A DNA stretch of 64,000 nt from an uncultured Bacillota bacterium (GTDB taxonomy: Bacteria > Bacillota_I > Bacilli_A > Culicoidibacterales > ZOR0006). The stretch is taken from contig CAMFJD010000004.1 of the NCBI GenBank assembly GCA_945956935.1, positions 1 to 64,000 of the forward strand, written 5' to 3'. This document shows positions 44,142 through 64,000 of the stretch, in pieces. The notes below the pieces were generated by a model that saw only the letters and a program-made list of their open reading frames with translations, ran no database searches and was not told the DNA's origin. How positions within the stretch are numbered: the stretch's first letter is position 1; every line of letters begins with the position of its first letter. The translations under genes were made by a program, and so were the position numbers.

Positions 44142-45426
44142 TTAAATAGCTACATCCTCTACTTTCAGTTGTTCACGGCGTCTTGAATGCACAACCATCG
44201 TTGTAATAACAGTCAAAACCCCAACACGCCCAGCATACATTAAACAAGTTTCCAATCGTTCCCAATTCACCTGTAATACCCATTGTGAGACCAACTGTCC
44301 CCAACCCACTAGTAGCTTCAAACAATAACTCCTTAAAACCAATATCAGGTTCCGCAAATAATAAAATCGTAAATCCAATGAATAAAAAAGACATATAAAC
44401 AAAAGTTGTCGCCAATGCTACTTTTGCCTTTACTAACGGAATCGATCGTCGAAATAATCTCACTTGATTATCTCCAATGATGAAAGCTCGAATTGCAGCA
44501 TATGTCGCACTGACAGTCGTTAGTTTCAATCCACCAGCTGTACCTGAGGGCGCACCACCGATAATCATCAACAAAATCATGATAAAAGCAAAACCTGCTG
44601 ATACATCTGCCAATGGTACCGTATTATATCCAGCAGTAGTTATGGCATTAATATTTTGAAATGTAATTATTAAGATATCTTCAAACCAACCATTCCCTTG
44701 GACAAAAGCATCACTCAAAAACACAATGATAGTAGAACCGATAATAAATACACTCATTAATGCCAAAATAATTTTTGTTGTAAAAGTAAGTGTCTTTTTT
44801 TGACCGCGCAAAAAACTCACCACATCTGTAGCTACAATAAAACCAAGTGCACCAAGCAAAGCAATGATATTAATCGATACATTTAAGCCTATATCTCCCA
44901 CATAATTTTCAAAACTATTCGGATATAATGAAAAACCAGCCGTACCAAATGTCGATACTGAATGAAAAATCGCACTCCAGACAGGATGGACGCGAGGATC
45001 ATCTTGAAAAACAAAATAAAGCACTACTGCACCTAATGCTTGAACAATTAATGCATAGACACCGATATTAAAGATAAATTGCCGTAAGTTCATTTCTTTT
45101 GGCAAAGCGAAAGTTCGTCGTAAAATATTGTCTTGACTCGTACTCATTGATCCCCGCAATGAAATACTGATAAATGCACTAAACGTCATATATCCAATAC
45201 CACCAAAAAAAACAAGCGTCATCAATACAAACTGTCCGATAAAAGTAAACTTATCAATTGTCAGTGGTGCCAGCCCTGTAGTTGAAATACCCGATACCGC
45301 TACAAACAAAGCATCGACAAATGACAGACCTTCTCCTGATACTTGTGAAAAAGGAAGCATAAAAACAACTGTTCCAAATAAAATATATAGTCCATAGCCA
45401 ACTAAAATTCGCCACGCTCGATTCAC
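44142..45426 (-). pseudogene. ktrB: Trk/Ktr-type potassium transporter subunit, frameshifted
   Basis: Ion-conducting subunit related to KtrB/TrkH. Reading from the GTG at 45426 gives the MPM repeats with selectivity-filter-like segments (SGISTTGL, STFGTAGF, AITTAGYN, SGLGTVGLT), but frame is lost near 44240-44247. The true C-terminus (LMYAGRVGVLTVITTMVVHSRRRE) continues in another frame to 44142. Compared with the paralogue at 46635, about 11 nt are missing at that point (LVLIV in the paralogue). Everything else is intact, so the break is recent or an error. Truncation would remove the last helix end and the positively charged tail. Confidence 0.85.
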
Positions 45427-46634: not shown

Positions 46635-47936
46635 TTAAACAGCAACATCTTCATATGTTGAACGGCGATTTTCACGCTGACGACTGCGTACAACAATTAC
46701 TGTCGCAACTGTAAATACTCCAACACGTCCCATATACATCAGCACAATAAGTACAAGTTTTGCTAAACTACTTAAATCGGCTGTAATTCCTGCTGACATC
46801 CCTGTTGTTCCTAACGCACTAGCAGCTTCAAACATTAAATACAATGGATTCATATCCGGCTCAATAAAAAACATCAGTAAGATCCCAATTGCCAAACTTC
46901 CGACATAAATCACAAAATTTGAAAAAGCTTGTTGTACACGCGTATCTGGAATTGAACGTCCCATTAACAGTGCTTGCTTACTCCCTTTCGCAAATGAACG
47001 AACAGCAGCAAAAATAGCGCTCACCGTCGTTATTTTAATCCCACCAGCAGTCCCTGAAGGTGCTCCACCGATTGTTAGAATAATCATAAGGACCATCAAA
47101 AACCCAATTGACACATTCGATAAATTAATTGTTGAGAACCCCGATGTTGTCATCGCATTTGTATTCTCAAACATAATTACCATAATTGTTTGCCACCATG
47201 TATCCCCAATCTGATAGTCACCAAATAAGAAGACAAGTGCGGTTGATATAAAGAGGATACCAAATGTCATAATTAAAATAATCTTCGTTGTAAACGTAAT
47301 TGTCTTTCGCTGTCCACGAATCACACTAGCAATATCAGTTGCGACAATAAATCCAAGAGATCCGAAAATAGCAACAACAATGGTAATCACATTAAATGCT
47401 GTATTTAAAACATATGATTCCACACCATTTGGGTAAATTGAAAATCCAGCTGTTGTAAAAATTGAAATTGAATGAAATAAGGCACTGAACGCTGGATTCG
47501 CTCGAGAATCACCTTGAAAAACGAAAAATAATGCTAATGCACCTAGCAACTGTACTGTTAATGCATAAATACCAGTACTAAAAATAAATTGTTTAACATT
47601 CATCTCTTTTGGTAATGCGAACGCTGATTTTAAAACACCATGCTGCTGTGTACTCATTGTTCCATGAATCGTCAATGTAATAAAAGCACTGAACGTCATA
47701 TATCCAAGTCCACCAACAAATAGCATGATCATCAATCCTATTTGACCAACGAGCGAAAAATCAGCAGCCGAAACTGGTGTTAATCCTGTCGTTGAAATCG
47801 CTGATGCTGAAACAAATAATGCATCGATAAATGGAAGCCCAACTCCCGATTTATGAGCAATTGGTAACATTAAAAATAATGCTCCACCTAACATATATAA
47901 AGCATAACCTAATAAAATACGCCCTAAATTCTTCAC
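46635..47936 (-). CDS. ktrB: Trk/Ktr-type potassium transporter subunit KtrB
   Basis: Intact paralogue of the frameshifted gene at 44142, 433 residues from a GTG start at 47936 with AAGGAA upstream. Four MPM units with filter-like segments SAISTTGL, SIFTTAGF, AMTTSGFS and SALGTTGMS give the potassium pathway. The C-terminal MYMGRVGVFT and basic tail are complete. No KtrA (RCK) gene is adjacent, so the cytosolic gate is encoded elsewhere. Role: K+ uptake, usually Na+-coupled. Confidence 0.93.
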   Translation of the reverse strand: MKNLGRILLGYALYMLGGALFLMLPIAHKSGVGLPFIDALFVSASAISTTGLTPVSAADFSLVGQIGLMIMLFVGGLGYMTFSAFITLTIHGTMSTQQHGVLKSAFALPKEMNVKQFIFSTGIYALTVQLLGALALFFVFQGDSRANPAFSALFHSISIFTTAGFSIYPNGVESYVLNTAFNVITIVVAIFGSLGFIVATDIASVIRGQRKTITFTTKIILIMTFGILFISTALVFLFGDYQIGDTWWQTIMVIMFENTNAMTTSGFSTINLSNVSIGFLMVLMIILTIGGAPSGTAGGIKITTVSAIFAAVRSFAKGSKQALLMGRSIPDTRVQQAFSNFVIYVGSLAIGILLMFFIEPDMNPLYLMFEAASALGTTGMSAGITADLSSLAKLVLIVLMYMGRVGVFTVATVIVVRSRQRENRRSTYEDVAV

Positions 47937-49487: not shown

Positions 49488-50255
49488 TTAAAATAATCCC
49501 CAATACCAAGTTAGTAATGCTTCACCAACATAAAAACAAATAAGTGCTGCTATTGCAATAAATGGACCAAATGGAATAATTGCTCCTTGTTTTACTCGCG
49601 TCGATGTCGCTCCAATTAAGCCAAGTACCGCCGCGATAAATAGTGACACCAATACTTGTTGCCAACCAATCACATATCCAATAACTGCGTATAACTTAAT
49701 ATCTCCTCCACCGAGGGCATCTTGTTTATAATACAGACGGCCAAGTGTGCCAACAATATATAGTAAACCAAATCCGACAACTGCTCCAATTAAGCCCTGA
49801 ACAATTGAAAATCCTTGAACAAAATAACTCGTAATCACAAGTAGAATTCCAAAAAATAATAAAATTTTATCTGGAATAATTTGTTCATAGATATCTGTTA
49901 CTGTGACGATAAAGAGCATTGCTGAAAATAACCACGCCCAAATAATTGAGCCATCTAAAAAACCATTATAACCATATACAATAACTGGCAGTACAAATAA
50001 TACTCCCATAAGCAATTCCGATAACCAATAAATAATCGGAATTTTCGCTTGACAATGGCGACATTTCCCCCGCAATACTATATACGAAAAGATTGGTGCT
50101 AAGTCAAATGCGCTTAATTGTGTGTCACATTCAGGACATGCCGAACGACCTTTGATAAAGTCGAGCCCTTTAACAGAGCGATATCCAACGACATGAAAAA
50201 ACGAACCAAACACAGCACCAATATAAAAAATGAAAATATAACCAATCCACTCCAC
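49488..50255 (-). CDS. pilD: Prepilin peptidase (A24 family, PilD/ComC type)
   Basis: Integral membrane aspartyl protease that cleaves the G|F/I/S bond of prepilins and N-methylates the new N-terminus. The start is a GTG at 50255 after AGGAGG; 255 residues. The cytoplasmic zinc loop CPEC...CRHC (40, 43, 65, 68) indicates the methylase domain is intact. Catalytic Asp121 (VTDIYEQIIPD) and Asp185 (GGGDIKL) are both present. Last gene of the pilus locus; its likely substrates are the prepilins at 50357, 50884, 56019, 56503 and 58540. Confidence 0.95.
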   Translation of the reverse strand: MEWIGYIFIFYIGAVFGSFFHVVGYRSVKGLDFIKGRSACPECDTQLSAFDLAPIFSYIVLRGKCRHCQAKIPIIYWLSELLMGVLFVLPVIVYGYNGFLDGSIIWAWLFSAMLFIVTVTDIYEQIIPDKILLFFGILLVITSYFVQGFSIVQGLIGAVVGFGLLYIVGTLGRLYYKQDALGGGDIKLYAVIGYVIGWQQVLVSLFIAAVLGLIGATSTRVKQGAIIPFGPFIAIAALICFYVGEALLTWYWGLF

Positions 50256-50335: not shown

Positions 50336-50358
50336 AAAAAAACCCGAAGGGTTTTTTT
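50336..50358. terminator. Terminator after second major pilin gene
   Basis: AAAAAAACCC (50336-50345) pairs with GGGTTTTTTT (50349-50358). Symmetric, U-run on both strands. It separates the pilins from the prepilin peptidase gene, perhaps lowering its expression. Confidence 0.85.
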
Positions 50359-50842
50359 ATTCTTTGCCAGATTCGTCTTCAACAAAATTTGCACGTACAA
50401 CTATATCACGAGTCCATTTCATTGCATCTTTTTCCTCGCCACTCAATTTATATGTTTTATCACCCGTTCCTGTTAATACTGTTTCATACTTTAAGTTTCC
50501 ACCAGTATTTGTTACAGTTACTGTTGCTTGTGATCCACTGCCAGTATAACCTGGGTCTAAATTTTCAATATAGCTCTTTCCAGCAATAACATTCGTAGTA
50601 TCTGTAGCTACATTGAAGTCAATAAGACAAGAGCTAGAGCATTTATCTGCATTTTGTGATGCCACTAATCGTGCTGATTCTTGTAAATTTTGTCCAATCG
50701 CAATATATGCATCTTTTCGTGTATTTTCGATTAAATTACCAATTGCTGGAATTGAAATCGCTGCGATAATCCCTACGATTACCATAACTGCTAATAATTC
50801 TACTAATGTGATACCTTTTTGATTTTTTATCGTTTGAAACAT
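50357..50842 (-). CDS. Type IV major pilin-like protein (copy 2)
   Basis: Prepilin with the class III leader MFQTIKNQKG cut before ITLVELLAVMVIVGII, with Glu5 of the mature protein. The ATG at 50842 is 9 bases from AAAGGAG and matches the leader of copy 1. Mature protein about 151 residues with a long N-terminal helix, Cys pair (KCSSSC) and a beta-rich C-terminal half. The first 65 residues are nearly identical to copy 1, while the C-terminal half diverges. The tail ends in an acidic EDESGKE. Confidence 0.93.
   Translation of the reverse strand: MFQTIKNQKGITLVELLAVMVIVGIIAAISIPAIGNLIENTRKDAYIAIGQNLQESARLVASQNADKCSSSCLIDFNVATDTTNVIAGKSYIENLDPGYTGSGSQATVTVTNTGGNLKYETVLTGTGDKTYKLSGEEKDAMKWTRDIVVRANFVEDESGKE
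50640..50828 (-). repeat. Direct repeat: 5' part of pilin gene copy 2
   Basis: This 189 bp stretch is closely similar, with the same length and no gaps visible, to 51167-51355. It covers the leader and N-terminal helix of the pilins. Confidence 0.85.
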
Positions 50843-50883
50843 CTTCATTTACTCCTTTATTCTCTTTTTAAATACATTGCTGA

Positions 50884-51369
50884 TTATTTTGCACGCACAA
50901 CATATTCTCTTGTCCACGTCATTACGTCTAGTGGATTATTCAAAGGATTTCCAACTACATTATCTGGTTTTAATTTGTACACTTTATCATTTGTAGCTTC
51001 ACCTGTTAGTGTTGTTTCATATGTTACGCTACCACCTGTATTTTTTACAACTACTTGTGCTACCGTATATCCTGAATCAATATTTTCAATATTAGCTGAT
51101 CCATCAATTTGATTATCAGCTAGCGTTGATGGTACTGATGCGAAGTACACCGTACATTCTGTTGAACATTTATCTGCATTTTGTGATGCCACTAATCGTG
51201 CCGCTTCTTGTAAATTTTTTCCTGTTGCAATATATGCATCTTTTCGTGTATTTTCAATTAAGTTTCCAATTGCTGGAATTGATATTGCTGCGATAATCCC
51301 TACGATTACCATAACTGCTAATAATTCTACTAATGTAATACCTTTTTGATTTTTCAATGTTTTGAACAC
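50884..51369 (-). CDS. Type IV major pilin-like protein (copy 1)
   Basis: Prepilin of 161 residues with leader MFKTLKNQKG and mature ITLVELLAVMVIVGII. The start is a GTG at 51369 with GGAGG 8-9 bases upstream. A conserved Cys pair (KCSTEC) lies in the globular domain. It is first in the two-pilin transcript, driven by promoter TTGAAT-17-TATAAA, so both pilins are probably made in larger amounts than the other pilus genes. Confidence 0.93.
   Translation of the reverse strand: MFKTLKNQKGITLVELLAVMVIVGIIAAISIPAIGNLIENTRKDAYIATGKNLQEAARLVASQNADKCSTECTVYFASVPSTLADNQIDGSANIENIDSGYTVAQVVVKNTGGSVTYETTLTGEATNDKVYKLKPDNVVGNPLNNPLDVMTWTREYVVRAK
51167..51355 (-). repeat. Direct repeat: 5' part of pilin gene copy 1
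   Basis: Partner of the repeat at 50640-50828. The near-identity at DNA level suggests recent duplication or ongoing gene conversion. Confidence 0.85.
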
Positions 51370-51462: not shown

Positions 51463-52485
51463 TTATTCTAATGATTGTACTTGTTGTGGTGTTATTTTCC
51501 CCTGCATTAAGAGATCATGCAAACTCATCTGCATTGTTTTCATCCCAAATTCTCGCCCTGTTTGAATCATACTATCAATTTGATGAACTTTTTCAGAACG
51601 AATAAGATTACTAATTGCTGATGTACATACCATGATTTCAAAAGCAGCTTCTCGCCCTGATTGCATGTGCGATTTTAATAATCGCTGTGAAACAACTGCT
51701 ACTAATGAATTTGCTAATTGCGTACGAACTTGTTGCTGCTGAGCCGCTGGAAACACATCAATAATCCGCTCAATTGTTGATGCTGCTGATGACGTATGCA
51801 GTGTTGCAAACACAAGGTGACCAGTTTCTGCAGCGGTTAAAGCAATTTGTATCGTCTCAAGGTCTCGCATCTCTCCGATCATAATAACATCAGGATCTTG
51901 ACGCAAGGCAACTTTGAGCCCTTTCGCAAAGTCACCTACATCCTTCCCAACTTCTCGTTGGTTTACAAGAGATTGTTTATGTTCATGATAAAATTCTACA
52001 GGATCCTCAAGTGTAATAATATGTTTATGCATCGTTTCGTTAATTTCATTTACCATTGCTGCCAATGTTGTTGACTTTCCAGATCCTGTTGGTCCAGTCA
52101 CTAAAATTAGACCTCGCTGTTTTTGTGATAATGTTCTAAGTATTTCTGGTAATTGTAATTGTTGAAATGTTGGAATATGTTGTGCGATTGGACGAATCGC
52201 AATCGCAACTGTTTTTTTCTGGTAGTATGCATTCACACGTAAGCGAGATACATTTTTTATCTCATAAGCAAAGTCCAATTGCTGTTCTTTTTCAAATTGC
52301 ACTACTTGTTCTTTATTCAACATTTCATATACTAAACGCTTTGTATCTTCACTCGTTAACACAGGGAATCCAAGGGGTAATAATTCTCCCTGTATACGTG
52401 CCATCGGCGGTCTATCTACACTAATATGAACATCTGATGCTCGATGTTGTAATGCTTCTTGTAAAATACGGTCAATTGTTATCAT
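51463..52485 (-). CDS. pilT: Type IV pilus retraction ATPase PilT
   Basis: Hexameric motor that depolymerises the pilus, giving twitching and DNA uptake. The 340 residues show Walker A GPTGSGKST at 131-139, the Asp box ITLEDPVEF, Walker B-like IMIGEMRDLETI, the His box TLHTSSAASTIERIID and an N-terminal domain typical of PilT. AGAGG precedes the ATG. It lies between the giant secreted protein and the major pilins. PilB, the opposing extension motor, is at the window edge. Confidence 0.95.
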   Translation of the reverse strand: MITIDRILQEALQHRASDVHISVDRPPMARIQGELLPLGFPVLTSEDTKRLVYEMLNKEQVVQFEKEQQLDFAYEIKNVSRLRVNAYYQKKTVAIAIRPIAQHIPTFQQLQLPEILRTLSQKQRGLILVTGPTGSGKSTTLAAMVNEINETMHKHIITLEDPVEFYHEHKQSLVNQREVGKDVGDFAKGLKVALRQDPDVIMIGEMRDLETIQIALTAAETGHLVFATLHTSSAASTIERIIDVFPAAQQQQVRTQLANSLVAVVSQRLLKSHMQSGREAAFEIMVCTSAISNLIRSEKVHQIDSMIQTGREFGMKTMQMSLHDLLMQGKITPQQVQSLE

Positions 52486-52500
52486 AAAATAATCCTCTTT

Positions 52501-55500
52501 TTAATATAAATCTGGTTGATCTTGCTGTCCAATATTCGGATCACTTTGACTTGCTCCATATGTATTCATATATAGTGTTTTTTGTGTATCATCACTATCG
52601 ATACTAATTGTTGTTGTTTGTGCTTGCTGTTGCGCTTGCATCGACCAACTCAGATAAAATTTTCGTGGTGACTGTTCACTTGGTGCTTCCCAACGAATTG
52701 CTGTTGCTACTTGACTCCACGCTGAACTTGGCCTTCCAATCCAATACTCTCCTTCACGATTCCAACTTATTTGATTTGCTGGAACACTGCTGTATAGAGA
52801 GCGACCATCTTGTTCACTATATGCATATGAAAGGACTGGTTCATGAGTAGAATTTGGTGCATATATTTTGATTTCATTTGGTTTTCCTTGCAATGTGAAC
52901 TCAGCTGCTAATTTAACATCTGAATCTCTTGCAATAGTTACATTACTGTTTTGTATATCAATCATAAATTGATTTGTATCTAGGCCTAGCGTGATTTCAC
53001 CTTGTAATACATTCGCCGGTTTATCACCCATGATATACAGTATTTTAATTTTTGGCTGTTTATAACTAAGATTCATCGTCGTACCCGTTCCAATTGTCGC
53101 ACCACTTGCATCATACTGCGTAGTTGAAATAATACTCTTAAATTCATCTGGTACATTGCTAACATCTACGTTTACTGAATATGATCCACTTCTACTTGGT
53201 GTGTATCTTAGTGTTCCATTCTGATTTGTTTGTGTCTGCGAGTAATTCGTCTTACTACTTACCGTTGCTACATAAGGATATGCTAAATCTTGCCACTCTT
53301 GATTTTCAAAACCAACTGTAATCGTTCCCTCTTTCAAATCAACTAGTAAGCCACTTTGAGCGGTATATGAAATAACTTTATTATCACATTTTCCACTATT
53401 TCCATTTTCTATGTTCACAGTTGTATTACTTGTAATTTTTGTAATACCTTCTCGTAATTTAGAGTTCAATGCATACTTGAAAGTATTTCCGATTTCAACA
53501 AGTTTGTTTTTTAGACTATCAGCCTGAACATTGTCAGATTCATAATGTTCTGTATGCTTAGCAATTTCAATGTTTTTTACATCCTCAGCAATAAGGTTAA
53601 TATCAATTGAACAAATCTTATTTTTTTCTAATGCTGAGCTAACAAGTGTTCGATTAACAGATAAATCATCATTCGTTAATAATCCTTCTATACCATCAGG
53701 TAATGCGATGGATTCTACAAAACCAAATTGTTTTGTTGTAATTGTCCTGTTAATAACATTACTTTTATTTCCATGCTCATCTATAGCATATATTGTCAGA
53801 TTGAGGACATCTTTTATATTAGTATTCGTATCACCTAACACATACGCTAAAATATCATTCGATTGAACATCAGTTTTGTGGTTATCATAGATAATTTGTC
53901 CATTTTTATCCATTTTTACAAACACTTCCATGCTATCTCCATCAGGATCAGATGCTGATACTTGTAGCGGTATCGTCCATTTCTGATCTTTAATAACATA
54001 TTCAGGTGTTTCCGAAGCTATCACCTTCGGACCAGAATTTCTTGGTACACGGTTAGCATTAACAATTGTATTCAATATAAGTTCTAAATTACCACCTGCT
54101 ACTGTTTCGGTATTTCCACCTACTAACATAAACGTTAAATTTTCACGTTGATACATTGCATAGTTATTTCTTGTATCTAACTTAGATGCGTTTATATCAG
54201 TACCTTCACTATCTGTATTATACAATGGGATAACTTTTTCATCTTCTAAATTCAACTGATATACAGATGTTGGTACTCCAGATACTTCTGGCTGCTGTGA
54301 ACTTCCATTCACATCGAATGGATACAATGTTGTAGGTGCTACGTTAGTCGGGTATCTCTTGTGAGACCAAACGCTATTCGCTTTCACAAATCCATATATA
54401 CTATCATTTGATGATATATCTTCATATGGTATGCTATCCCCAGAAAAATCGACAGTAGCATCTCTATTTCCTTCTATCGCAGTATTCGCTCTAGTAAAAT
54501 CAAAAAAGCGTGACTGACCTAATTCAGAACGAAAATTTTGCGTCAATAATCTACTAAAATGGTCATTTGTACGGTTTGCTATTGTCTTAGAAGTAAACAA
54601 CATTCCTCCACCAGCATCTGCATAATGAACCAATTTTGTTATTATCTTCTGCATTTCATCTGAATCTGCTGATGCGGATGTTTTCCACTCATCACTATCC
54701 ATTCCCAAAATAATATAATCAAATTTCAAAAAGTCAAAATCATCCGCTGCTACCTCAATCGTATGACCATTATTCCAATCTATAGGCGTCAGTACTTTGA
54801 TTGTAATATCTAATTCATATCCTGCATCTTTTAATATTTTCTTTCTCTGCTCGTCTAAACCTTTCCACATGCCTTCATTTGTACCATCTACACTGTATGT
54901 TGTGAGTTGCAAAACATTTATTTTTCTTACTTCATCCGGATTCGTTGTTGTAATTTCTACATACCCTGTTTGATAACTCTTCACTCCATTTGTATCAAGC
55001 TCTATTTTCCAAGGTAATAATCCCAAAAAATTTTCTGGCAATAACGATTGAATATCAAAATTATCCTCAACATTTTCTAGTGTTGTAACTTTTTCATTAT
55101 CTGAAAACAATCCATCTCCATCAATATCTAAAAATAAATTAGCTGTCAAATTTGTTTTTCCTGCTTCTGCTACGACTGTGAAATTTAATTCTCTTTTATC
55201 CATTACATCATTGCTCGTAGGTGCTTTAACATCAAATGATACACGTGACATATTATTTTTTTGGTAGTCACTCACTACTTGTGCTAATGATACCTTTCCT
55301 TCCGAACTGTGTAGCTTAGGATCGTCAATCGTGGAATTCGTCAAAGGTTCATATTTGTAAAAATTTGCACTACTCACTTTTTTTAAACCGCTATAGAGAA
55401 CTTGAACTAGATTTGAATTTTCCATGTTTCCTCTCGAACCTATAGTCTCATCATAATAAACAATTTGCCCACTGTTTGCAAAATCAATTATCTCTTGTGC

Positions 55501-56031
55501 TTTTCGTTTCGTTATATCATTCTCGGCGTAGTTTGTACCTACATTCGAATTATTTTCTGGTAAATACGTCTTACTATCAACTCCACATGAGTTATACATA
55601 CACTCGATGCTATTATCCTCTATTTGGCTATATGAATACCCTCTTGGACCGTCCCAAATATTGGATACGTCTGTTTCTAACAATCCATCATACATATTAT
55701 CAATTTGAATGACATCATAATAGCCATTTAATTGTGTTGTTTTCCCAATAAATTCAGGCATCGTCATTAATTCTAATTCAATATATGAATTATCGATCTG
55801 TTTCACAGCTTGAACACCCGTTTTATTATTTACAGGTACTCCTGTCCAATTTGCACGAACAAACTCCCCTGGTATAATTTTCAATACTTTAATTGGATTA
55901 TCTTTGTGAGTTCCAACTGCATGAACTATTGGTGATGCGTAAGTTTGAATAACATCCATAAGTGGTTGAATACTTATTAGAACCATCACAATAGCGACTA
56001 TACTTATACATACTTTCTTTATCTTTTGCAT
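52501..56031 (-). CDS. Giant secreted DUF5057-like protein in pilus locus
   Basis: A 1176-residue protein I recognise only as DUF5057-like, by the MTMPEFIGKTTQLNGYYDVI segment (about 90-109) and a later FDYIILGMDSDEW...ADAGGGMLFT stretch (about 437-480). It has an N-terminal membrane or signal segment (about 7-30) but no prepilin cleavage motif and no LPXTG. A calcium-type loop DIDGDGLFSDNE lies at 302-313, SDPDGDS occurs further on, and the C-terminal half looks like beta-sandwich repeats. The gene is in tight spacing with pilW and pilT and has its own GAGGAG site. It may be a pilus-tip or wall-associated adhesin, but no adhesin domain I know was found. Confidence 0.7.
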   Translation of the reverse strand: MQKIKKVCISIVAIVMVLISIQPLMDVIQTYASPIVHAVGTHKDNPIKVLKIIPGEFVRANWTGVPVNNKTGVQAVKQIDNSYIELELMTMPEFIGKTTQLNGYYDVIQIDNMYDGLLETDVSNIWDGPRGYSYSQIEDNSIECMYNSCGVDSKTYLPENNSNVGTNYAENDITKRKAQEIIDFANSGQIVYYDETIGSRGNMENSNLVQVLYSGLKKVSSANFYKYEPLTNSTIDDPKLHSSEGKVSLAQVVSDYQKNNMSRVSFDVKAPTSNDVMDKRELNFTVVAEAGKTNLTANLFLDIDGDGLFSDNEKVTTLENVEDNFDIQSLLPENFLGLLPWKIELDTNGVKSYQTGYVEITTTNPDEVRKINVLQLTTYSVDGTNEGMWKGLDEQRKKILKDAGYELDITIKVLTPIDWNNGHTIEVAADDFDFLKFDYIILGMDSDEWKTSASADSDEMQKIITKLVHYADAGGGMLFTSKTIANRTNDHFSRLLTQNFRSELGQSRFFDFTRANTAIEGNRDATVDFSGDSIPYEDISSNDSIYGFVKANSVWSHKRYPTNVAPTTLYPFDVNGSSQQPEVSGVPTSVYQLNLEDEKVIPLYNTDSEGTDINASKLDTRNNYAMYQRENLTFMLVGGNTETVAGGNLELILNTIVNANRVPRNSGPKVIASETPEYVIKDQKWTIPLQVSASDPDGDSMEVFVKMDKNGQIIYDNHKTDVQSNDILAYVLGDTNTNIKDVLNLTIYAIDEHGNKSNVINRTITTKQFGFVESIALPDGIEGLLTNDDLSVNRTLVSSALEKNKICSIDINLIAEDVKNIEIAKHTEHYESDNVQADSLKNKLVEIGNTFKYALNSKLREGITKITSNTTVNIENGNSGKCDNKVISYTAQSGLLVDLKEGTITVGFENQEWQDLAYPYVATVSSKTNYSQTQTNQNGTLRYTPSRSGSYSVNVDVSNVPDEFKSIISTTQYDASGATIGTGTTMNLSYKQPKIKILYIMGDKPANVLQGEITLGLDTNQFMIDIQNSNVTIARDSDVKLAAEFTLQGKPNEIKIYAPNSTHEPVLSYAYSEQDGRSLYSSVPANQISWNREGEYWIGRPSSAWSQVATAIRWEAPSEQSPRKFYLSWSMQAQQQAQTTTISIDSDDTQKTLYMNTYGASQSDPNIGQQDQPDLY

Positions 56032-56486
56032 ACTGATCCCTCCTCATAATTTCGCATCCGGACTGTTGTTGTTTCTGTATAATTTACAGGAAATTTCCGG
56101 TTATATCGTTCTAATTCGACCGTCACTTCTAACAACGCCCCAGACTGCTTTACTGTTAATGATTCAATTGATCGTGCGATAATAGTTGTACCTTGTACTA
56201 ATTCAGTTTCACTTAAATTTAACATTGTCGAGCCAGATGAGTTACAAAACTTAATTGGTAATGATCCATCTTCTTCAAATACAATGTTTTGTGCGTTATA
56301 GCCTAATTGCTGAAATTTTTGGAATACATTTGATGCCTCACGTTGTAAATCTGCACGGACTTGTTGATGGTTCATACTATCAAGGTGTACGAAAAAAAAT
56401 TGACTCACTAACATAATCACAATACTTGTTAATGCTAGTGCTGCAAGTAATTCTACTAATGTAATTCCTTTTTCATTCTTGATCAT
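56019..56486 (-). CDS. Minor pilin, PilW-like
   Basis: A 155-residue prepilin with leader MIKNEKG cut before ITLVELLAALALTSIV, Glu5 present. The rest has one Cys pair (KFCNSS near 80 and the C-terminal CKR) and beta-rich sequence. It overlaps the giant DUF5057-like gene by 13 bp. Minor pilins of this size prime pilus assembly with PilV and PilX. Name is by position and size only. Confidence 0.85.
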   Translation of the reverse strand: MIKNEKGITLVELLAALALTSIVIMLVSQFFFVHLDSMNHQQVRADLQREASNVFQKFQQLGYNAQNIVFEEDGSLPIKFCNSSGSTMLNLSETELVQGTTIIARSIESLTVKQSGALLEVTVELERYNRKFPVNYTETTTVRMRNYEEGSVCKR

Positions 56487-56502: not shown

Positions 56503-58524
56503 TTAGTAGAGTAATTGCCAATTTTTCAATTCTACATACTCTTTTGGCTTATACATTGCATCACTCATTGACTCATTCCAGTTTGGTAAATCATGAAACA
56601 CACCCGTCAATTGTTCAGCATATGTACTCATAATATCGATAATATCACCTTTATTCCATGTCAGCTGATTGACTGTATCTTTCAACATGACATTTCCTTG
56701 TGCAACAACTGTTCCTGTGATGGTTGCTGACTCTATATCACGAACGATAATATCACCTGCTGTTATTACTAAAAAAGGTGTTTCTCCTTTATTATCTGGT
56801 TTGAGACAAATTTCATTGACGCTACATGTCTCGTTTGTAATAACAACTGCTTTGTTTTTATCCTTGTTATACACAAAATTTTCTGATTGAACTTCTGTTC
56901 CTTTATCAAAATGAATAAAATCTTGTATCGTCATAGTCTTTCCATTTGTATAAATACTATTCCAATCAAGTTCCGTTGGCTCTATCCACTGATCTGAAAA
57001 GGGCAAATTTAAATAATAAGCTGCTTTGGCATATGTATTTTGTGCCTCTTTCAGCACAGCTAATTGTTCACTGCCAAATTTTGGTGTGAGAACTTCTGTT
57101 TTATTGTCTGCTGTTTTACGAACAATCGCCCCAGCAGCATAGGTATTTTGGGGCAGTTGTATATTTCCATGCTTTAATTCATTTTCGGTATTTTTAAGCT
57201 TTGATGCAATTCCGCTAAAATATTGTGATTTTTGTTCAACTGTCCATGATACTAAATCACTAATTGGTGTTAATTTCGTACCAACAATAACTTGCAGTGG
57301 CTCAATATATTCATATACAATTTGTTGACATGATTCTACACGATCAACTTTCGTACACACTTCTTGAATATCTTGAACTGGTAATGTATACACATGATAA
57401 TTTCCATTCACCGCAACTGACTCACCTGTTTGATATGGACTGCTTAAATTGATGAATGCTGTTCCAGCAATATATGCTGAATCAGTAATTGTCAATCCTG
57501 CACTACTATTCGCACTTGGTGGATTGCTGATGATACTGCTTGACTCCATTTTAGTTGTTGTGCTATCAACATTCACATCACTAATTCCATAGTAATTTCC
57601 AATTGTTGTCAATCCTGATGATGCATTAAGAACAAAATCATTCCCTGTTGTAATATTATCAAATGTATTACTCGTATCATTTTGCACAACTACATTTTTA
57701 GCATACACATCTTGACCAATTAAAACTGCTTTATCTTTCGACACTACTGAATTGGCTGTTGTCAACATTTGATTGAATAGAATTGGCTCATTAGACAATG
57801 AACTTACACGAATTCCAGACTCATATTCACTACTATTCGACTCGGTTGCAGTCGGCTCGTCTTTTTCGCCATTGGCATAAATATTACCATCAAATGTCAA
57901 TCCACCTCCGTTCAATGATTGTTGAATGTCGATAGAGCTGTCAGTTGTAATCATATTTTGCTCTAATAGTGGTGCTGTTTGTGGTCCTGCTTGCCATTCT
58001 GGAATTTTAATATGAATGTCAACACTTACTTTTCTGCTAATATTTGTGCTGTCTTGAAATGCTGATGAGAGGATAAATTGCCAAGTTTTATTAGCTTCGT
58101 CATATACATTTGAATCAATGATTGCTAGCTCAAGTGCCGGTGGTTTAGTGGTAACTGCTGTAGTTGAATGGTTTTCATTATAATATGAAAGTGTTGTCGC
58201 TGATTGTGTCCATTTATTTTCACGATTATTGCCGATAAATTCTACCATTGCTTGATCAAATGTTTGTTGTGATGTTGCCTTACTTTGTGCAACTGATACC
58301 GCACTTGTAAATGTTTTTTCCAGTGCTATTTGTGCCAGTGTCAATCCTGATTCAGCACGGTATAGTGTCTCAACTTGATTTTTTTCCATTGTTCGTGACT
58401 TCACTGCCATAAACACAGTATTGCTCACCATGGCAGTAATTATTGTTAATACAACAAAGAATAATAATGCAATTACTAAAACTGATCCTTGTTCATTCAT
58501 TTTTTTCTTTTGTATCTTACGCAT
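56503..58524 (-). CDS. Large minor pilin, PilX-like
   Basis: A 673-residue protein with a prepilin-like N-terminus: leader MRKIQKKKMNEQG before SVLVIALLFFVVLTII, so Ser at +1 and no Glu5, as in PilX/GspK-type tip subunits. The helix is followed by the PilX_N-type segment (VETLYRAESGLTLAQIALEKTF). The bulk is a large extracellular domain with DNIYANGE-like beta-helix-type repeats. This is far larger than usual PilX (about 160-200) and nearer GspK-like tip proteins. GAGGAG lies 5 bases before the ATG. Confidence 0.82.
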   Translation of the reverse strand: MRKIQKKKMNEQGSVLVIALLFFVVLTIITAMVSNTVFMAVKSRTMEKNQVETLYRAESGLTLAQIALEKTFTSAVSVAQSKATSQQTFDQAMVEFIGNNRENKWTQSATTLSYYNENHSTTAVTTKPPALELAIIDSNVYDEANKTWQFILSSAFQDSTNISRKVSVDIHIKIPEWQAGPQTAPLLEQNMITTDSSIDIQQSLNGGGLTFDGNIYANGEKDEPTATESNSSEYESGIRVSSLSNEPILFNQMLTTANSVVSKDKAVLIGQDVYAKNVVVQNDTSNTFDNITTGNDFVLNASSGLTTIGNYYGISDVNVDSTTTKMESSSIISNPPSANSSAGLTITDSAYIAGTAFINLSSPYQTGESVAVNGNYHVYTLPVQDIQEVCTKVDRVESCQQIVYEYIEPLQVIVGTKLTPISDLVSWTVEQKSQYFSGIASKLKNTENELKHGNIQLPQNTYAAGAIVRKTADNKTEVLTPKFGSEQLAVLKEAQNTYAKAAYYLNLPFSDQWIEPTELDWNSIYTNGKTMTIQDFIHFDKGTEVQSENFVYNKDKNKAVVITNETCSVNEICLKPDNKGETPFLVITAGDIIVRDIESATITGTVVAQGNVMLKDTVNQLTWNKGDIIDIMSTYAEQLTGVFHDLPNWNESMSDAMYKPKEYVELKNWQLLY

Positions 58525-58539
58525 ATGTACTCCTCATTT

Positions 58540-59280
58540 CTATCGTAACAATACTTGTTTTTTGGTTTGAAATTTTGATGGTTCTTCTGGTGCTACTTGA
58601 ATTTCAACATTGTACAGTGTCCCAATTTGATAAAAATCTGATGATAATAACACTTGTATTTCGCGACTTCCGCCAATATTTTCTTTAAATGCTTCATTTG
58701 GTACGATAACTTGTAGCTTCTTTACTGTTTCAATATTAACTGCATACGGCTCACCTTTACATTCGATGATTGGTTCCACATTATTGAATGATAAAACGCC
58801 ATTGTTAATATGTAATGTTTTCGTATTTCCATCATACATAAGAATCAGTGGTTTTCCATTTGCTAAAATAATTGGTGTACTGTAGGAACCATTTACAATG
58901 ACTTGCATACTTCCGTTTATTTTTTGAAATTCCATAGTAACTGATGGTTCTTGATCAAAAGCTTGTTCTTTCTCAAATGTAAGCACAACGTCTTTTTTAT
59001 TGTACGTACCAGTGTATCTTGCATTATTCCCACTATCTTGTTTCAAATCAATCATACCTGCATATTCATTTGATATCGGTAATGCTTCTTCTTTTGCAAG
59101 ATGCTCAACTACAGTTTGTCCGACTTGTGTATTCGTCTGTAATTGTCTTGCATATGTTTCATTTTTCATCATAATGACTGTCGCTGTAACAAAAACGGTA
59201 GCAACAATACCAATGACAACAAGTGCTGAAATAACTTCTACAAGTGAGAAACCCTTTTCTGATTGTATCGTTTTCATCAT
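58540..59280 (-). CDS. Minor pilin, PilV-like
   Basis: A 246-residue prepilin with leader MMKTIQSEKG cut before FSLVEVISALVVIGIV, Glu5 present. A globular domain of mixed strands follows. The ATG overlaps the pilO stop as TAATG, so translation is coupled. It lies with pilW and pilX, the usual minor-pilin trio. Confidence 0.85.
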   Translation of the reverse strand: MMKTIQSEKGFSLVEVISALVVIGIVATVFVTATVIMMKNETYARQLQTNTQVGQTVVEHLAKEEALPISNEYAGMIDLKQDSGNNARYTGTYNKKDVVLTFEKEQAFDQEPSVTMEFQKINGSMQVIVNGSYSTPIILANGKPLILMYDGNTKTLHINNGVLSFNNVEPIIECKGEPYAVNIETVKKLQVIVPNEAFKENIGGSREIQVLLSSDFYQIGTLYNVEIQVAPEEPSKFQTKKQVLLR

Positions 59281-60560
59281 TATTGTTTCACGATGATCAC
59301 TTGATCATTATCTCCATTCACAGTAATACGCGGTGCTTCTAAATCATCATTTCGGACAAATACTACAACTTTTCGATCTGTTGTATTTTTGATATCAATC
59401 GATAATGTTGTAGAATCTCTTGTATCAATGCGAGCTTCACTCACTAAATCTACGATAATGTATTCTGAATTTGGTACGAATACTTCTACCGATTCAGGAT
59501 AGTGCTCGTCACCTAACGTATATTCGTATGTATATGTATCTTCTCGTTTCGCAAATGTCATTGTTGCTTTATGATCACCCGTTTTTTCACTCACTAAATA
59601 ACTCGTTTTTTCTGTATCATCCGCACGTCCAATCATAACGCTTGATAAATCTGAATGCGCTGATTTTACATTCACAACAAAATCTCGTTTATTTTCATCT
59701 GCTTGGACTCCATTTTGAGTAAATACACTAGATGTTGCTGAAAAGGGCAAATCTTTTCCATATTCACCAGTAAGTCCCCAAACAGCTATTTCTGACATCA
59801 CATCTGGAATAATATAAATTTCAACGCTCAATGACGCAGATACGTTGGTATCATTCAACGCACGAATTTCACTATTACTGACAATCATTCGTTTTTCAAA
59901 TGTTTCAATTGATTTAATAAATTCTTGCACTTGTTTATAAGGACCATCTACTGTAATACCAACTGTCACTTGTTGAACAAACTGAGACGTCGTCACAACT
60001 TCTTCCTCTTCTGTATTGGTACTATCTGTTGTCATTTCATCACTTTGTTCCACTGTATCCCCTTCACTCGTGGAACTTCCTGATTGTTCTGGTAGTACTT
60101 TCTCACTTAATGTTTCATTATTTTCAGCGGCTTCCTTATTTAAGTTGTATTGTTCTAATAACTGATCAACACTTCCTAATCCAGGAACTAGAAATGATGA
60201 GGTAGCACTAACAACACCACTTGTCCCTAATTGGCTAAATGTTAGCCCTCCCGTTAATTTTTGTTTGCTCAGTAAATTATTTAAATCAATAATAATTTGC
60301 TCTTGTTCATATGCTGAATAATACTGTTTCGTTTTTTTATCGACACTTGTTGCTTTTTTCTGATGATCATCTTTATGTTCCTGCATAGTTGCAATGATCT
60401 GATCATACTCTTCTTTTTCAGCAGTTATAGTAGCATAAAAAGAGTGTAACTCTTCATTTTTCGCATGATGTGGTTTGATGATAAATTGATAATAGCTGAA
60501 CCCAATCACAAAAATGGCTATCCCACCGATTAATATTTGTTCTTGCTTACTCAACTTCAT
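59280..60560 (-). CDS. pilO: PilO-like pilus platform protein with long C-terminal extension
   Basis: Inner-membrane platform protein that pairs with PilN. The ATG at 60560 (426 residues) is 9 bases after GAGGTG; a GTG further upstream is less good. An N-terminal helix (about 8-26) and coiled coil (30-100) are followed by a low-complexity acidic/Ser/Thr linker (about 155-190, DTVEQSDEMTTDSTNTEEEE) and the PilO ferredoxin-like core (about 190-255). About 170 further beta-rich residues have no PilO counterpart. Usual PilO length is about 200. Confidence 0.82.
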   Translation of the reverse strand: MKLSKQEQILIGGIAIFVIGFSYYQFIIKPHHAKNEELHSFYATITAEKEEYDQIIATMQEHKDDHQKKATSVDKKTKQYYSAYEQEQIIIDLNNLLSKQKLTGGLTFSQLGTSGVVSATSSFLVPGLGSVDQLLEQYNLNKEAAENNETLSEKVLPEQSGSSTSEGDTVEQSDEMTTDSTNTEEEEVVTTSQFVQQVTVGITVDGPYKQVQEFIKSIETFEKRMIVSNSEIRALNDTNVSASLSVEIYIIPDVMSEIAVWGLTGEYGKDLPFSATSSVFTQNGVQADENKRDFVVNVKSAHSDLSSVMIGRADDTEKTSYLVSEKTGDHKATMTFAKREDTYTYEYTLGDEHYPESVEVFVPNSEYIIVDLVSEARIDTRDSTTLSIDIKNTTDRKVVVFVRNDDLEAPRITVNGDNDQVIIVKQ

Positions 60561-61107
60561 AATTTTGCTCACCTCTTTGACATTGAATTTGGAATGAAAA
60601 TCCGTTACTATCTCCGCTCACTGGTTGGATTGTACTTACATAAACATCAACAAATAAAGTCAATTCTTTTAAGTTATGTTGAAATTCTGCAATTGCTTGA
60701 CGGGTTACTCCCTTACCATTCAACGATACCGTTGTTGCATTTATAGTCATTTGATCAATTGTCACTGTTTTAGGCATAATTTTTGAAATCAGTACTAATG
60801 CTTGACTCACATTAGCATCACGCGTATCAACAGCATTAATAATTGCATTTAAATCCTGTTCTGTCTCATTTAATACTGCTAACTGGTTATCAATATATTC
60901 AGCTTCTTGTAATTTTTTTTGTAAAGAACTATCTTCAAGTTGTGATTGTACATTCGCAATCTTTTTTTGGACTGTCCATGTTTCATAAGTCATCACAAGT
61001 GTAAGTAAACATAATATAACAGCTAGTACTACTCCTGCTGTCTTTATAATCGTATTTTTTTCTGCTGCTTCTTGCCGATAATGATCAAAAAAGTTAATAT
61101 CTTGCAT
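60547..61107 (-). CDS. pilN: PilN-like pilus assembly protein
   Basis: Bitopic inner-membrane partner of PilM and PilO. The 186 residues begin with the PilM-binding motif DINFFDHYR (INFF, equivalent to INLLP), then a transmembrane helix (about 22-42), a coiled coil (45-90) and a small ferredoxin-like domain. GGAGGGG precedes the ATG. It overlaps pilO by 14 bp. Confidence 0.9.
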   Translation of the reverse strand: MQDINFFDHYRQEAAEKNTIIKTAGVVLAVILCLLTLVMTYETWTVQKKIANVQSQLEDSSLQKKLQEAEYIDNQLAVLNETEQDLNAIINAVDTRDANVSQALVLISKIMPKTVTIDQMTINATTVSLNGKGVTRQAIAEFQHNLKELTLFVDVYVSTIQPVSGDSNGFSFQIQCQRGEQNYEVE

Positions 61108-61109
61108 AC

Positions 61110-62276
61110 TTACCCCTCCACTCTAACTAATGAACTCACTGCATTTAAATAGCTTGCAATATTATCGAGTTCCGATTTTGAATGTTGCTGTATTGGCGTA
61201 ACTGTTTCCACTAATTGAATTGGTGTTTTTACGACCTGTTCTAGGTATTGTGCAAGTCCTTGAATTTGTCCGATACCGCCGTATAGATAAATCATCTCTA
61301 TTGTTCGATTTTGATTTGTATTACGATAAAATTGAATAAACTTTTCAATTTCTCCAGCAATTTGATCGAGTGAATGTTTCATAATCGGATGTTCAACGGC
61401 AAACGTTTCATCAAGTACATTCAATGTATGTTTCATTTCATATATCTTTTCTCGTTCGTACCCTTCTAACTTCAATGCTTCCTCAAGTGTATACTCATCT
61501 TTACGAATTAAGCGTGTAAAATCAATATTACTATTGTGTTGTACACTGACATTAATAGTTGATTCACCAAAATCAATCCATCCGATTGTAGACATTGTAT
61601 TAAGTGCAACTTCATTGATTTTCGCATTATGAGCTACAAGCTTTCTCAAAGCTACAATTGGTAATTCAAGTGAATACGGCTGCAAATCTACCTTTTTTAA
61701 AATTTGATAGTATGTACGTAAAATACGTTCTGGAAATACAGATACAAAGATTCGTTGTTTATTCTCTTCATTGACAATATCCGTTACGAGGTAACGAATT
61801 TGATATTCATCTAAATTAATCGGTAAATATTGTTGCAATTCATAGCGAATAACTGTTTCAATCTCATCGCCTTCAACAATTGGAATGAAAATATCACGAT
61901 TAATAACTTGCGATGAATTCATCGTTATGACAGCATGTTTTGCTTTCAACTTGTATTCTTTTACAATTTGTTCAAACATTTCAGCAATTAATGTTTCATT
62001 CACAATTGCCCCATCTTTCATACTGCCAATTGGTGTTGCAAGGGTAAAGCTTGTTTTTATCGTCATATTTCCTTGGGAATATTTTCCTACAATAACCTTT
62101 GTTACACTACTTCCAATATCAAATACAACTAATTCATTTGGTTTTTTTCCAATACGTTTTTTAGGACTAAATTTCACCCCACTCTTTGTTTTATTGCTTT
62201 TCTTTTCTTTCAGTCGTTGCACAATTTCATTGATATCTGATTGCCAAATACTTTTTTTCTCCTGATTTGCGTCCAT
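61110..62276 (-). CDS. pilM: PilM, actin-like pilus assembly ATPase-fold protein
   Basis: Cytoplasmic protein of the FtsA/actin fold that links PilN to the motor. The ATG at 62276 (388 residues) follows GAGGGG by 7 bases. The phosphate-1 loop reads VVFDIGSSVTKVIVG (about 49-63); IGWIDFGESTINVS and YLYGGIGQIQGLAQYL are the later nucleotide-loop segments. An extra basic N-terminus of about 40 residues precedes the fold. It ends 3 bp before pilN. Confidence 0.92.
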   Translation of the reverse strand: MDANQEKKSIWQSDINEIVQRLKEKKSNKTKSGVKFSPKKRIGKKPNELVVFDIGSSVTKVIVGKYSQGNMTIKTSFTLATPIGSMKDGAIVNETLIAEMFEQIVKEYKLKAKHAVITMNSSQVINRDIFIPIVEGDEIETVIRYELQQYLPINLDEYQIRYLVTDIVNEENKQRIFVSVFPERILRTYYQILKKVDLQPYSLELPIVALRKLVAHNAKINEVALNTMSTIGWIDFGESTINVSVQHNSNIDFTRLIRKDEYTLEEALKLEGYEREKIYEMKHTLNVLDETFAVEHPIMKHSLDQIAGEIEKFIQFYRNTNQNRTIEMIYLYGGIGQIQGLAQYLEQVVKTPIQLVETVTPIQQHSKSELDNIASYLNAVSSLVRVEG

Positions 62277-62291
62277 TTTTCGTCCCCTCAC

Positions 62292-63494
62292 TTACATCGC
62301 ACTATACATTTCAAACATTGGTGTCATAATAGCCACAATAATAAAACCAATAATAGCTGCCATAACTAAAATCATAATCGGTTCAACGAGTGCGACTGTT
62401 ACTTGAATTTGATGTTCTAATTCTTCTTCATAGAAATCAGCTGTCTTTTCTAAAATATCATCCATTGATCCAGTTTCTTCACCAATTTTAACCATTGATA
62501 CTAGCATCGTCGGGAATGATTCAGACACCTTTATGGCTTCAGCAAAGCCTGTTCCCTTTGATACATCATCACTGATTTCTTTTACTTTTTCTTCAATAAT
62601 TTTGTTTTTCATCACTGATGCAGTCAAGTCAAGAGCTGTCATAATTGGAATACCACTCGCTGTTAATACTGACATTGTTCGTGTGAATCGTGAAACAATA
62701 ATTTTTTTATTCAGCGTTTTTATAATTGGAGCAGTTAAGCGCAATCGCGAAAAAAATTGTTGTCCTGAGTTCGTTTTACCATAAACTTTAATGAAAACAA
62801 ATAAAGCACTAAGAAAAACAATTAAATTCAAAGCATTTGCTAGTAGAAAATCACTTATTGCGATCAATAGTTGTGTTGTCCATGGAATTTCTACACCATT
62901 ATCAATAAAAATTGATAAAAATGTTGGCAAAATATATGTGAGTAAAAAAATGACGACGACCGTTGCTACAACAGCAAGAATAGTCGGATAAATCATTGTT
63001 GATTGAATTTTCTTATTCAACTTATTATCTTTAACATACTGTGTTGCCATTCTTAACATAATTGCATCTAGATTCCCGGTTACTTCTCCTACTTCAACCA
63101 TACTGACAAATAAACTTGGAAAAATTGTTTCTTCTTTTGCCATCGCTTGAGAAAGTGATTCACCTTTGTTAATGTTTTCAGTTACTCGCATCGTAGCTTC
63201 ACGCAATTTTTTATTTGGTAACTCTTCTGCTAAAATACCTAGAGCGACGTTCAGATTAACACCCGCATGTAACATTGTATAAAATTGACGACAAAAAATC
63301 GCAATATCTTCAAGTCCTACTTTTTCAAAATTCCCCAAATTCACTTCTGGGCTCTCAATAACTTTTTCAACTTTTAATGGATAATAACCGTTACTTGTCA
63401 GCATAGTCATAACATCTGTCTGTGTCGCTGCTTCATAAACACCAGTTATTTTATCGCCATTTTGATTTTTTGCACGATATTTAAATTTTGCCAT
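62292..63494 (-). CDS. pilC: Type IV pilus platform protein PilC
   Basis: Polytopic GspF-family protein that transmits PilB/PilT motion to the pilus. The 400 residues have two GspF domains (about 70-190 and 275-395) with FCRQFYTMLHAGV, LVSMVKIGEETGSM and hydrophobic segments at about 168-190, 225-245 and 370-395. AAGGGA stands a little upstream of the ATG. It is 16 bp after pilB. Confidence 0.95.
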   Translation of the reverse strand: MAKFKYRAKNQNGDKITGVYEAATQTDVMTMLTSNGYYPLKVEKVIESPEVNLGNFEKVGLEDIAIFCRQFYTMLHAGVNLNVALGILAEELPNKKLREATMRVTENINKGESLSQAMAKEETIFPSLFVSMVEVGEVTGNLDAIMLRMATQYVKDNKLNKKIQSTMIYPTILAVVATVVVIFLLTYILPTFLSIFIDNGVEIPWTTQLLIAISDFLLANALNLIVFLSALFVFIKVYGKTNSGQQFFSRLRLTAPIIKTLNKKIIVSRFTRTMSVLTASGIPIMTALDLTASVMKNKIIEEKVKEISDDVSKGTGFAEAIKVSESFPTMLVSMVKIGEETGSMDDILEKTADFYEEELEHQIQVTVALVEPIMILVMAAIIGFIIVAIMTPMFEMYSAM

Positions 63495-63510: not shown

Positions 63511-64000
63511 TTACTCTAAAATAATCGTTAACAATTCTTCAACTGTCGTTTGTCCCTCTAACACAAGGCGTCGGCATTCATCCGCTAATGTAGACATACC
63601 ATTTTCAACTGCTAATGACTGGAGTTGATCAGGTGATTTTTTTTGTGAAATAGCTTCACGAATTGACTCGTGAAATTCCAGGACTTCATACACACCTAAA
63701 CGACTAAAGTAACCAATATTGTTACAATTCCCGCACCCTTCACCTTCATACACTGTTGTGACTTGCTCTTTAGGTATTTGGAGTAGTTCTTTCTCATAAT
63801 TACTAGCCACTCGTTCAATTTTACATTGCGGACAAATTTTACGAACAAGACGCTGTGCAATAATTCCTCGAATAGATGAATTCAACAAATAAGCAGCAAC
63901 TCCCATATCTTGCAAACGAAATACTGTTGATGGGGCATCATTAGTGTGTAACGTGCTTAACACAAGATGCCCTGTAATTGCTGCACGAACAGCAATTTGA
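63511..64000 (-). CDS. pilB: Type IV pilus extension ATPase PilB (partial, C-terminal part)
   Basis: C-terminal about 163 residues of the assembly motor; the gene continues beyond 64000. Visible are the [20 protein letters not shown] stretch (His box, STLHTND), the zinc knuckle with CPQCK and [10 protein letters not shown], and the [16 protein letters not shown] domain end. The frame is open through the window edge, so no start can be chosen. It is the first gene of the pilus operon seen here. Confidence 0.95.

Follow-up and report, generated by a model that had tools for sequence, protein, structure and literature searches.

A secreted non-pilin protein with an exchangeable head, probably the tip cap and adhesin of a monoderm type IV pilus

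The protein of 1176 amino acids encoded at positions 52501 to 56031 of the window, the 64,000-nucleotide stretch of an uncultured Bacillota bacterium analysed here, is probably the non-pilin tip cap and adhesin of a monoderm type IV pilus, with a head that is exchanged in relatives and a mode of action like that of PilC/PilY1. This reading is built on the gene order, the exchange of heads, a shared C-terminal region, its tail motif and the distribution of Glu5 among the minor pilins, and it would place the protein at the pilus tip, docked there and engaged in adhesion. The gene lies in an operon comprising, in this order, pilB (partial), pilC, pilM, pilN, pilO, pilV, pilX, pilW, the proposed tip-cap gene, pilT, two pilin genes and the gene for prepilin peptidase:

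63511..63963, minus strand: pilB, extension ATPase, C-terminal part of an open reading frame running off the window
62292..63494, minus strand: pilC, platform protein; its kin found by BLAST stand in the same order elsewhere
61110..62291, minus strand: pilM
60547..61107, minus strand: pilN
59280..60572, minus strand: pilO with a C-terminal extension, 430 amino acids
58540..59280, minus strand: pilV-like minor pilin, Glu5 present
56503..58524, minus strand: pilX-like minor pilin, 673 amino acids, without Glu5, ending NWQLLY, the proposed docking partner
56019..56486, minus strand: pilW-like minor pilin, Glu5 present
52501..56031, minus strand: proposed pilus-tip cap/adhesin gene with a DUF5057 head, 1176 amino acids, ATG start (open reading frame and DUF5057 match)
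51463..52485, minus strand: pilT, retraction ATPase, 60-62% identical to pilT of two Turicibacter-like loci (L016, L017)
50357..51369, minus strand: two type IV pilin genes, 50357-50848 and 50884-51369
49488..50255, minus strand: prepilin peptidase (A24)

The proposed cap gene starts 13 bases inside pilW, with a GAGGAGG Shine-Dalgarno sequence within the pilW end, and pilT starts 15 bases past its stop. The open reading frame and the 13-base overlap bear out the first-pass annotation, which had placed a secreted non-pilin of this size between pilV-pilX-pilW and pilT, overlapping pilW. The two pilin genes between pilT and the peptidase gene form a tandem with nearly identical N-terminal halves, and either may code for the major pilin. 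Elsewhere in the window, 44173-45426 and 46635-47936 code for related potassium transporters of the Trk/Ktr type, the first of which has a C-terminus, CWACWGFDCYYNDGCAFKTP, that seems to be frameshifted relative to the second.

The following parts, all on the minus strand, are distinguished in the 1176-residue protein:

55918..56031, minus strand: N-terminal signal peptide, about residues 1-38, Sec type, without a prepilin site (read from the sequence, with a presumed cleavage site)
54046..55893, minus strand: variable head, residues ~47-662, with two putative Rossmann-like units flanking a strand region that carries a Ca-type loop (head alignment)
54592..55521, minus strand: match to Pfam DUF5057 (PF16480), residues 171-480, 50.2 bits against a gathering threshold of 27.9
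55093..55128, minus strand: Ca-type loop DIDGDGLFSDNE, residues 302-313, read from the sequence and conserved in a six-row head alignment
52504..53073, minus strand: C-terminal carrier region, residues 987-1176, common to tip-slot proteins with unrelated heads (profile match, weak for the window protein when it is left out)
52504..52518, minus strand: extreme C-terminal tail QPDLY-COOH, motif P-x-[LIVM]-[FY]

The signal peptide and its Sec type were judged by inspection, and a hydrophobic N-terminal run is also present in relatives of the protein. Its N-terminus contains no hydrophobic G|xxxxE site of the prepilin (class III) type and no Pfam N_methyl match, and inspection together with Pfam revealed neither an LPxTG signal nor a wall-binding domain, as the first-pass annotation had stated. 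The DUF5057-like N-terminal half that it had named is confirmed by the PF16480 match, which a full-length hmmscan did not report, and the Ca-type loop is present where it had been seen, with acidic positions largely conserved in relatives. The beta-sandwich repeats proposed for the C-terminal half did not hold up as repeats, that half giving only sub-threshold Ig-like matches; the conserved tail QPDLY had been missed. Compared with solved structures, the head profile gave a non-significant top lead (2gk3, E=0.49), and AlphaFold2 models based on three-sequence alignments were not usable for either the tip protein (pLDDT 31) or PilX (pLDDT 37). A search of the open-access literature found no paper on DUF5057.

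Relatives were sampled in 395 genomes of the class and in 208 genomes of the Clostridium vincentii family (Clostridiaceae). DUF5057 is rare, being found in 6 of the former and 26 of the latter. A single-sequence scan of genome contigs with the 1176-residue protein gave no matches, an alignment query of genome contigs led to Clostridium vincentii and Inordinaticella, and viral contigs and plasmids gave none. The order pilB-C-A-M-N-O-V-X-W followed by a gene for a large secreted protein, the position called here the tip slot, recurs in Turicibacter-like genomes and across Clostridiaceae. Two Turicibacter-like loci (L016 and L017, their identity being deduced) and C. vincentii DSM 10228 (L021) share pilC-A-M-N-O-V-X-W-DUF5057, and in the first two the DUF5057 gene is followed by pilT and the A24 peptidase gene. 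All 23 strong Clostridiaceae loci with upstream sequence have the DUF5057 gene downstream of the minor pilin genes; in two of them (L057 and L063) an A24 gene stands in between. In another of these loci (L064:12165-15869, minus strand) a second large, PA14-like secreted protein of 1234 amino acids, ending KLKSLD, lies between pilW and the DUF5057 protein and is apparently a tandem second cap. In another locus (L100:10451-11350) an open reading frame for an IS66-type transposase separates pilW from the slot gene.

Four weak, partial DUF5057 matches lie outside pilus operons (L078-L081, in G566, G662, G688 and G580:C104). The association with pilus genes, on which the first-pass annotation had let its proposal stand or fall, was found: strong relatives almost always have their genes within a pilus operon. 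In the 395-genome class sample PilX is present at full length in three genomes, all of them DUF5057-positive, and a relative of the same genus (G001) has neither DUF5057 nor a PilM of the type IV pilus type. PilM (PF11104) could not serve to recognise this pilus type among Clostridiaceae, since it matches 200 of the 208 genomes, partly through other proteins; PilX together with operon inspection replaced it.

DUF5057 is only one of several heads found in the slot. Twenty neighbourhoods of high-scoring PilM genes were taken from Clostridiaceae genomes with no DUF5057 match, and 16 of them contain the same operon with a large secreted protein in the same slot; of the remainder, one is cut off by the contig end behind pilW, one lacks a slot gene and has a truncated pilX, and two belong to another pilus type. 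Most of these sampled operons thus carry another head. Among the 15 of the 16 slot proteins on which Pfam was run, DUF5057 was absent from all, and most have VWA domains, often two, sometimes accompanied by PA14/GLEYA or Ig repeats (Big_13/Big_6); one has Ig repeats only (L087) and one no Pfam family (L088). The 'DUF5057' labels that BLAST gave to proteins of these operons were rejected, the similarity lying in the VWA and C-terminal parts and not in DUF5057. DUF5057 itself is combined with VWA in five proteins (L017, L021, L057, L063, L069) and with PA14/GLEYA in two (L063, L064). The variety of Pfam heads in one slot therefore makes the heads exchangeable. In other systems, VWA and PA14/GLEYA serve as adhesion domains. 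Together with the position after the minor pilins and the constant C-terminal region, these heads give indirect support to the suggestion of the first-pass annotation that the protein is a tip adhesin.

The part that stays constant is a C-terminal region of about 170 amino acids. A profile built from the C-terminal 180 residues of 19 proteins of the DUF5057 type was searched against all open reading frames of the loci; it matches 14 of the 16 held-out slot proteins lacking DUF5057, at their own C-termini and with E from 7e-16 to 4e-4, and the best non-slot open reading frame reached E=0.25, with none below. When the window protein was left out of the profile, a weak match (E 7e-5 to 2e-3) was obtained with its last 300 residues alone and no significant one at full length, so its share in the region rests partly on the full alignment. 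The extreme tail is more sharply defined. In 36 proteins below 50% identity, P occupies position -4 in 30, L position -2 in 31 (L, I, V or M in 35) and F or Y position -1 in 29; positions -1, -2 and -4 each carry 3.2 to 4.1 bits of information, where the null reached at most 0.92. The complete ending P.[LIVM][FY] is found in 22 of the 36 (chance, 5e-4), comprising 11 of 21 DUF5057-positive and 11 of 15 DUF5057-negative proteins, and in 0 of 589 other open reading frames of the same loci. Variants within the 36 end in LD, LE, LQ or LK. Left out of these counts were three Haloplasmatales-type DUF5057 proteins, two of them near minor pilin genes, and one Clostridiaceae protein (G677, L067 continued in L074), from all of which the tail is absent. 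One Haloplasmatales-type pilus locus codes for a second DUF5057-like protein of 1349 amino acids near the first (L019:6932-10981, minus strand), and neither has a P-x-L-F tail. In another locus (L055:11217-13076) the slot gene is split into two open reading frames, the second carrying the tail YLPELF. The window protein, encoded downstream of pilV-pilX-pilW and ending QPDLY, has both the position and the tail of the tip-slot family.

The likely recipient of this conserved end, judged by analogy with known tip complexes, would be PilX. Glu5 is present in 42 of 42 PilV and in 39 of 40 PilW proteins, the exception having a mis-set site, and in 0 of 42 PilX proteins, so PilX should sit at the top of the priming complex. 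In tip complexes described elsewhere a minor pilin lacking Glu5 forms the cap (PMC10191384), PilY1 with its variable N-termini sits on top (PMC10191384, PMC7541494, PMC13190605), and models join PilY1 to the tip by beta-strand complementation (PMC13190605; biochemistry in PMC7541494). PilX of these operons, mostly 650-950 amino acids long, shows a weak, sub-threshold GspK match, and its C-terminus W-[KRQ]-[IL]-x-[KR], conserved across the operons of relatives, may be of importance. The PilX of the window is oversized and contains repeated G-[DN]-[VI]-x(3,4)-G stretches suggestive of a beta-solenoid. Coevolution was also tried as a means of singling out PilX. Distances of the C-terminal region correlate with those of PilX (r 0.65, partial 0.43 given PilM; 0.48 and 0.31 for the head), and PilO and PilV nearly match PilX in the correlation with that region; the partial distance correlation thus reflects co-inheritance and not specific contact, and PilX is not singled out.

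The proposed course of events begins with export of the tip-slot protein by Sec, as its signal peptide suggests. The conserved C-terminal region and the P-x-[LIVM]-[FY]-COOH tail would next attach to the primer formed by PilV, PilW and PilX, with PilX as the most likely contact. As the pilus extends, the capped tip would be pushed out across the wall, led by the DUF5057 head. This head, which Ca at residues 302-313 probably stabilises, would bind a putative ligand, and retraction by PilT would pull. In relatives the head is swapped for VWA, PA14/GLEYA or Ig repeats, and the carrier end stays in place.

The same signals could be read in another way, namely that the pilus machinery secretes the protein as a substrate into the medium in the manner of type II secretion (T2SS), the protein's tail serving as an export signal read by PilX and not as a permanent anchor. 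A soluble protein with a Sec signal and no anchor, a short tail common to slot proteins, a PilX that lacks Glu5 like GspK and resembles it below threshold, and the description of PilY1 itself as an analogue of T2SS substrates (PMC7541494) would all suit such a role. What makes it unlikely is that there is, as a rule, one slot protein per operon, that its heads are VWA or PA14/GLEYA and Pfam found no enzyme domains in slot proteins, and that pilT is kept for retraction in the window and in both Turicibacter-like loci.

Less probable is the other role offered by the first-pass annotation, that of a wall-side guide helping the pilus to cross thick peptidoglycan. Monoderm pili have no secretin, and their passage through the wall is an open question (PMC6916266), which gives the idea its appeal. 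It found no support here: Pfam detected no peptidoglycan- or wall-binding domain, LPxTG is absent, and from species to species most of the protein changes, with adhesin domains taking its place. A better candidate for wall crossing than the tip-slot protein is PilO, whose extension is kept in most such operons. This extra C-terminal part lies beyond the PilO/T2SSM match, and PilO is about 400-460 amino acids long in most relatives.

More doubtful still is genuine, if divergent, membership of the PilC/PilY1 family. The sequence of minor pilins V, W and X followed by a large secreted protein, the variable N-terminus, VWA in relatives and the Ca-type loop all recall that family; the PF05567 beta-propeller is nevertheless unmatched in the window protein and in every relative scanned, and what stays constant is a different region, with a signature of its own. 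Least credible is an unrelated secreted protein lodged in the operon by chance, which the few weak DUF5057 matches outside pilus operons might suggest and which the translational overlap with pilW and the occupation of the same slot across Bacilli and Clostridia contradict.

A tip cap with swappable heads is thus the preferred reading for the window, and it invites a broader one, to which we give about equal weight for and against: that type IV pili of clostridial-type monoderms as a rule bear a non-pilin cap with swappable heads, held by a carrier module of a third sort next to the pilin and the PilY1 beta-propeller, namely a C-terminal region with a free P-x-[LIVM]-[FY] end that inserts into a PilX lacking Glu5, as an independently evolved equivalent of PilY1. 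If such a cap spans Clostridium-type pili, it would provide a defined adhesin for study together with a short docking end open to mutation; it would explain conserved minor pilins alongside changing adhesion targets, would give DUF5057 a role, and points to more than one origin of head-swapping caps. No earlier description of the tip-slot family was found in the open-access literature, nor one of the combination of a PilY1-like job with a different docking end.

Among known systems the closest in organisation is PilC/PilY1 (PF05567, IPR008707), a non-pilin adhesin that sits at the tip of type IVa pili in diderms and primes their assembly. It has been described as a tip-borne carrier module to which variable effector modules are attached (PMC8179133), and display of such a non-pilin tip effector is assigned to diderms (PMC10191384). 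PilC/PilY1 and the window protein are both Sec-exported non-pilins of about 1000 amino acids or more, encoded beside the minor pilins, with variable N-terminal heads including VWA, a conserved C-terminal carrier and a Ca-type loop. They differ in that the window protein and all slot proteins scanned with Pfam lack the PF05567/IPR008707 beta-propeller, the carrier end is a different region closing with the P-x-[LIVM]-[FY]-COOH tail, and the hosts are monoderm. For monoderm adhesion, modular pilins have been the expected basis (PMC6916266). Streptococcus sanguinis pili, which are likewise monoderm and present VWA (PilB) or lectin (PilC) modules, come near in this respect, and a profile including the VWA-headed relatives matches S. 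sanguinis PilB (7b7p, E=2e-12); there, however, the adhesin module forms part of a pilin that carries a class III signal peptide, whereas the window operon encodes it as a secreted protein of its own next to three pilins. The GspI-GspJ-GspK tip of T2SS shares a PilX/GspK-type pilin without Glu5 on top, presumed to meet the secreted protein, and differs from the present system in that the latter has a PilT retraction ATPase, adhesin-type heads and a PilX of the size given above. Sortase-anchored and wall-bound surface proteins bear LPxTG or wall-binding domains, which the window protein does not have. With DUF5057 (PF16480) the protein agrees above the curated cut-off, but the slot that it occupies holds other heads as well.
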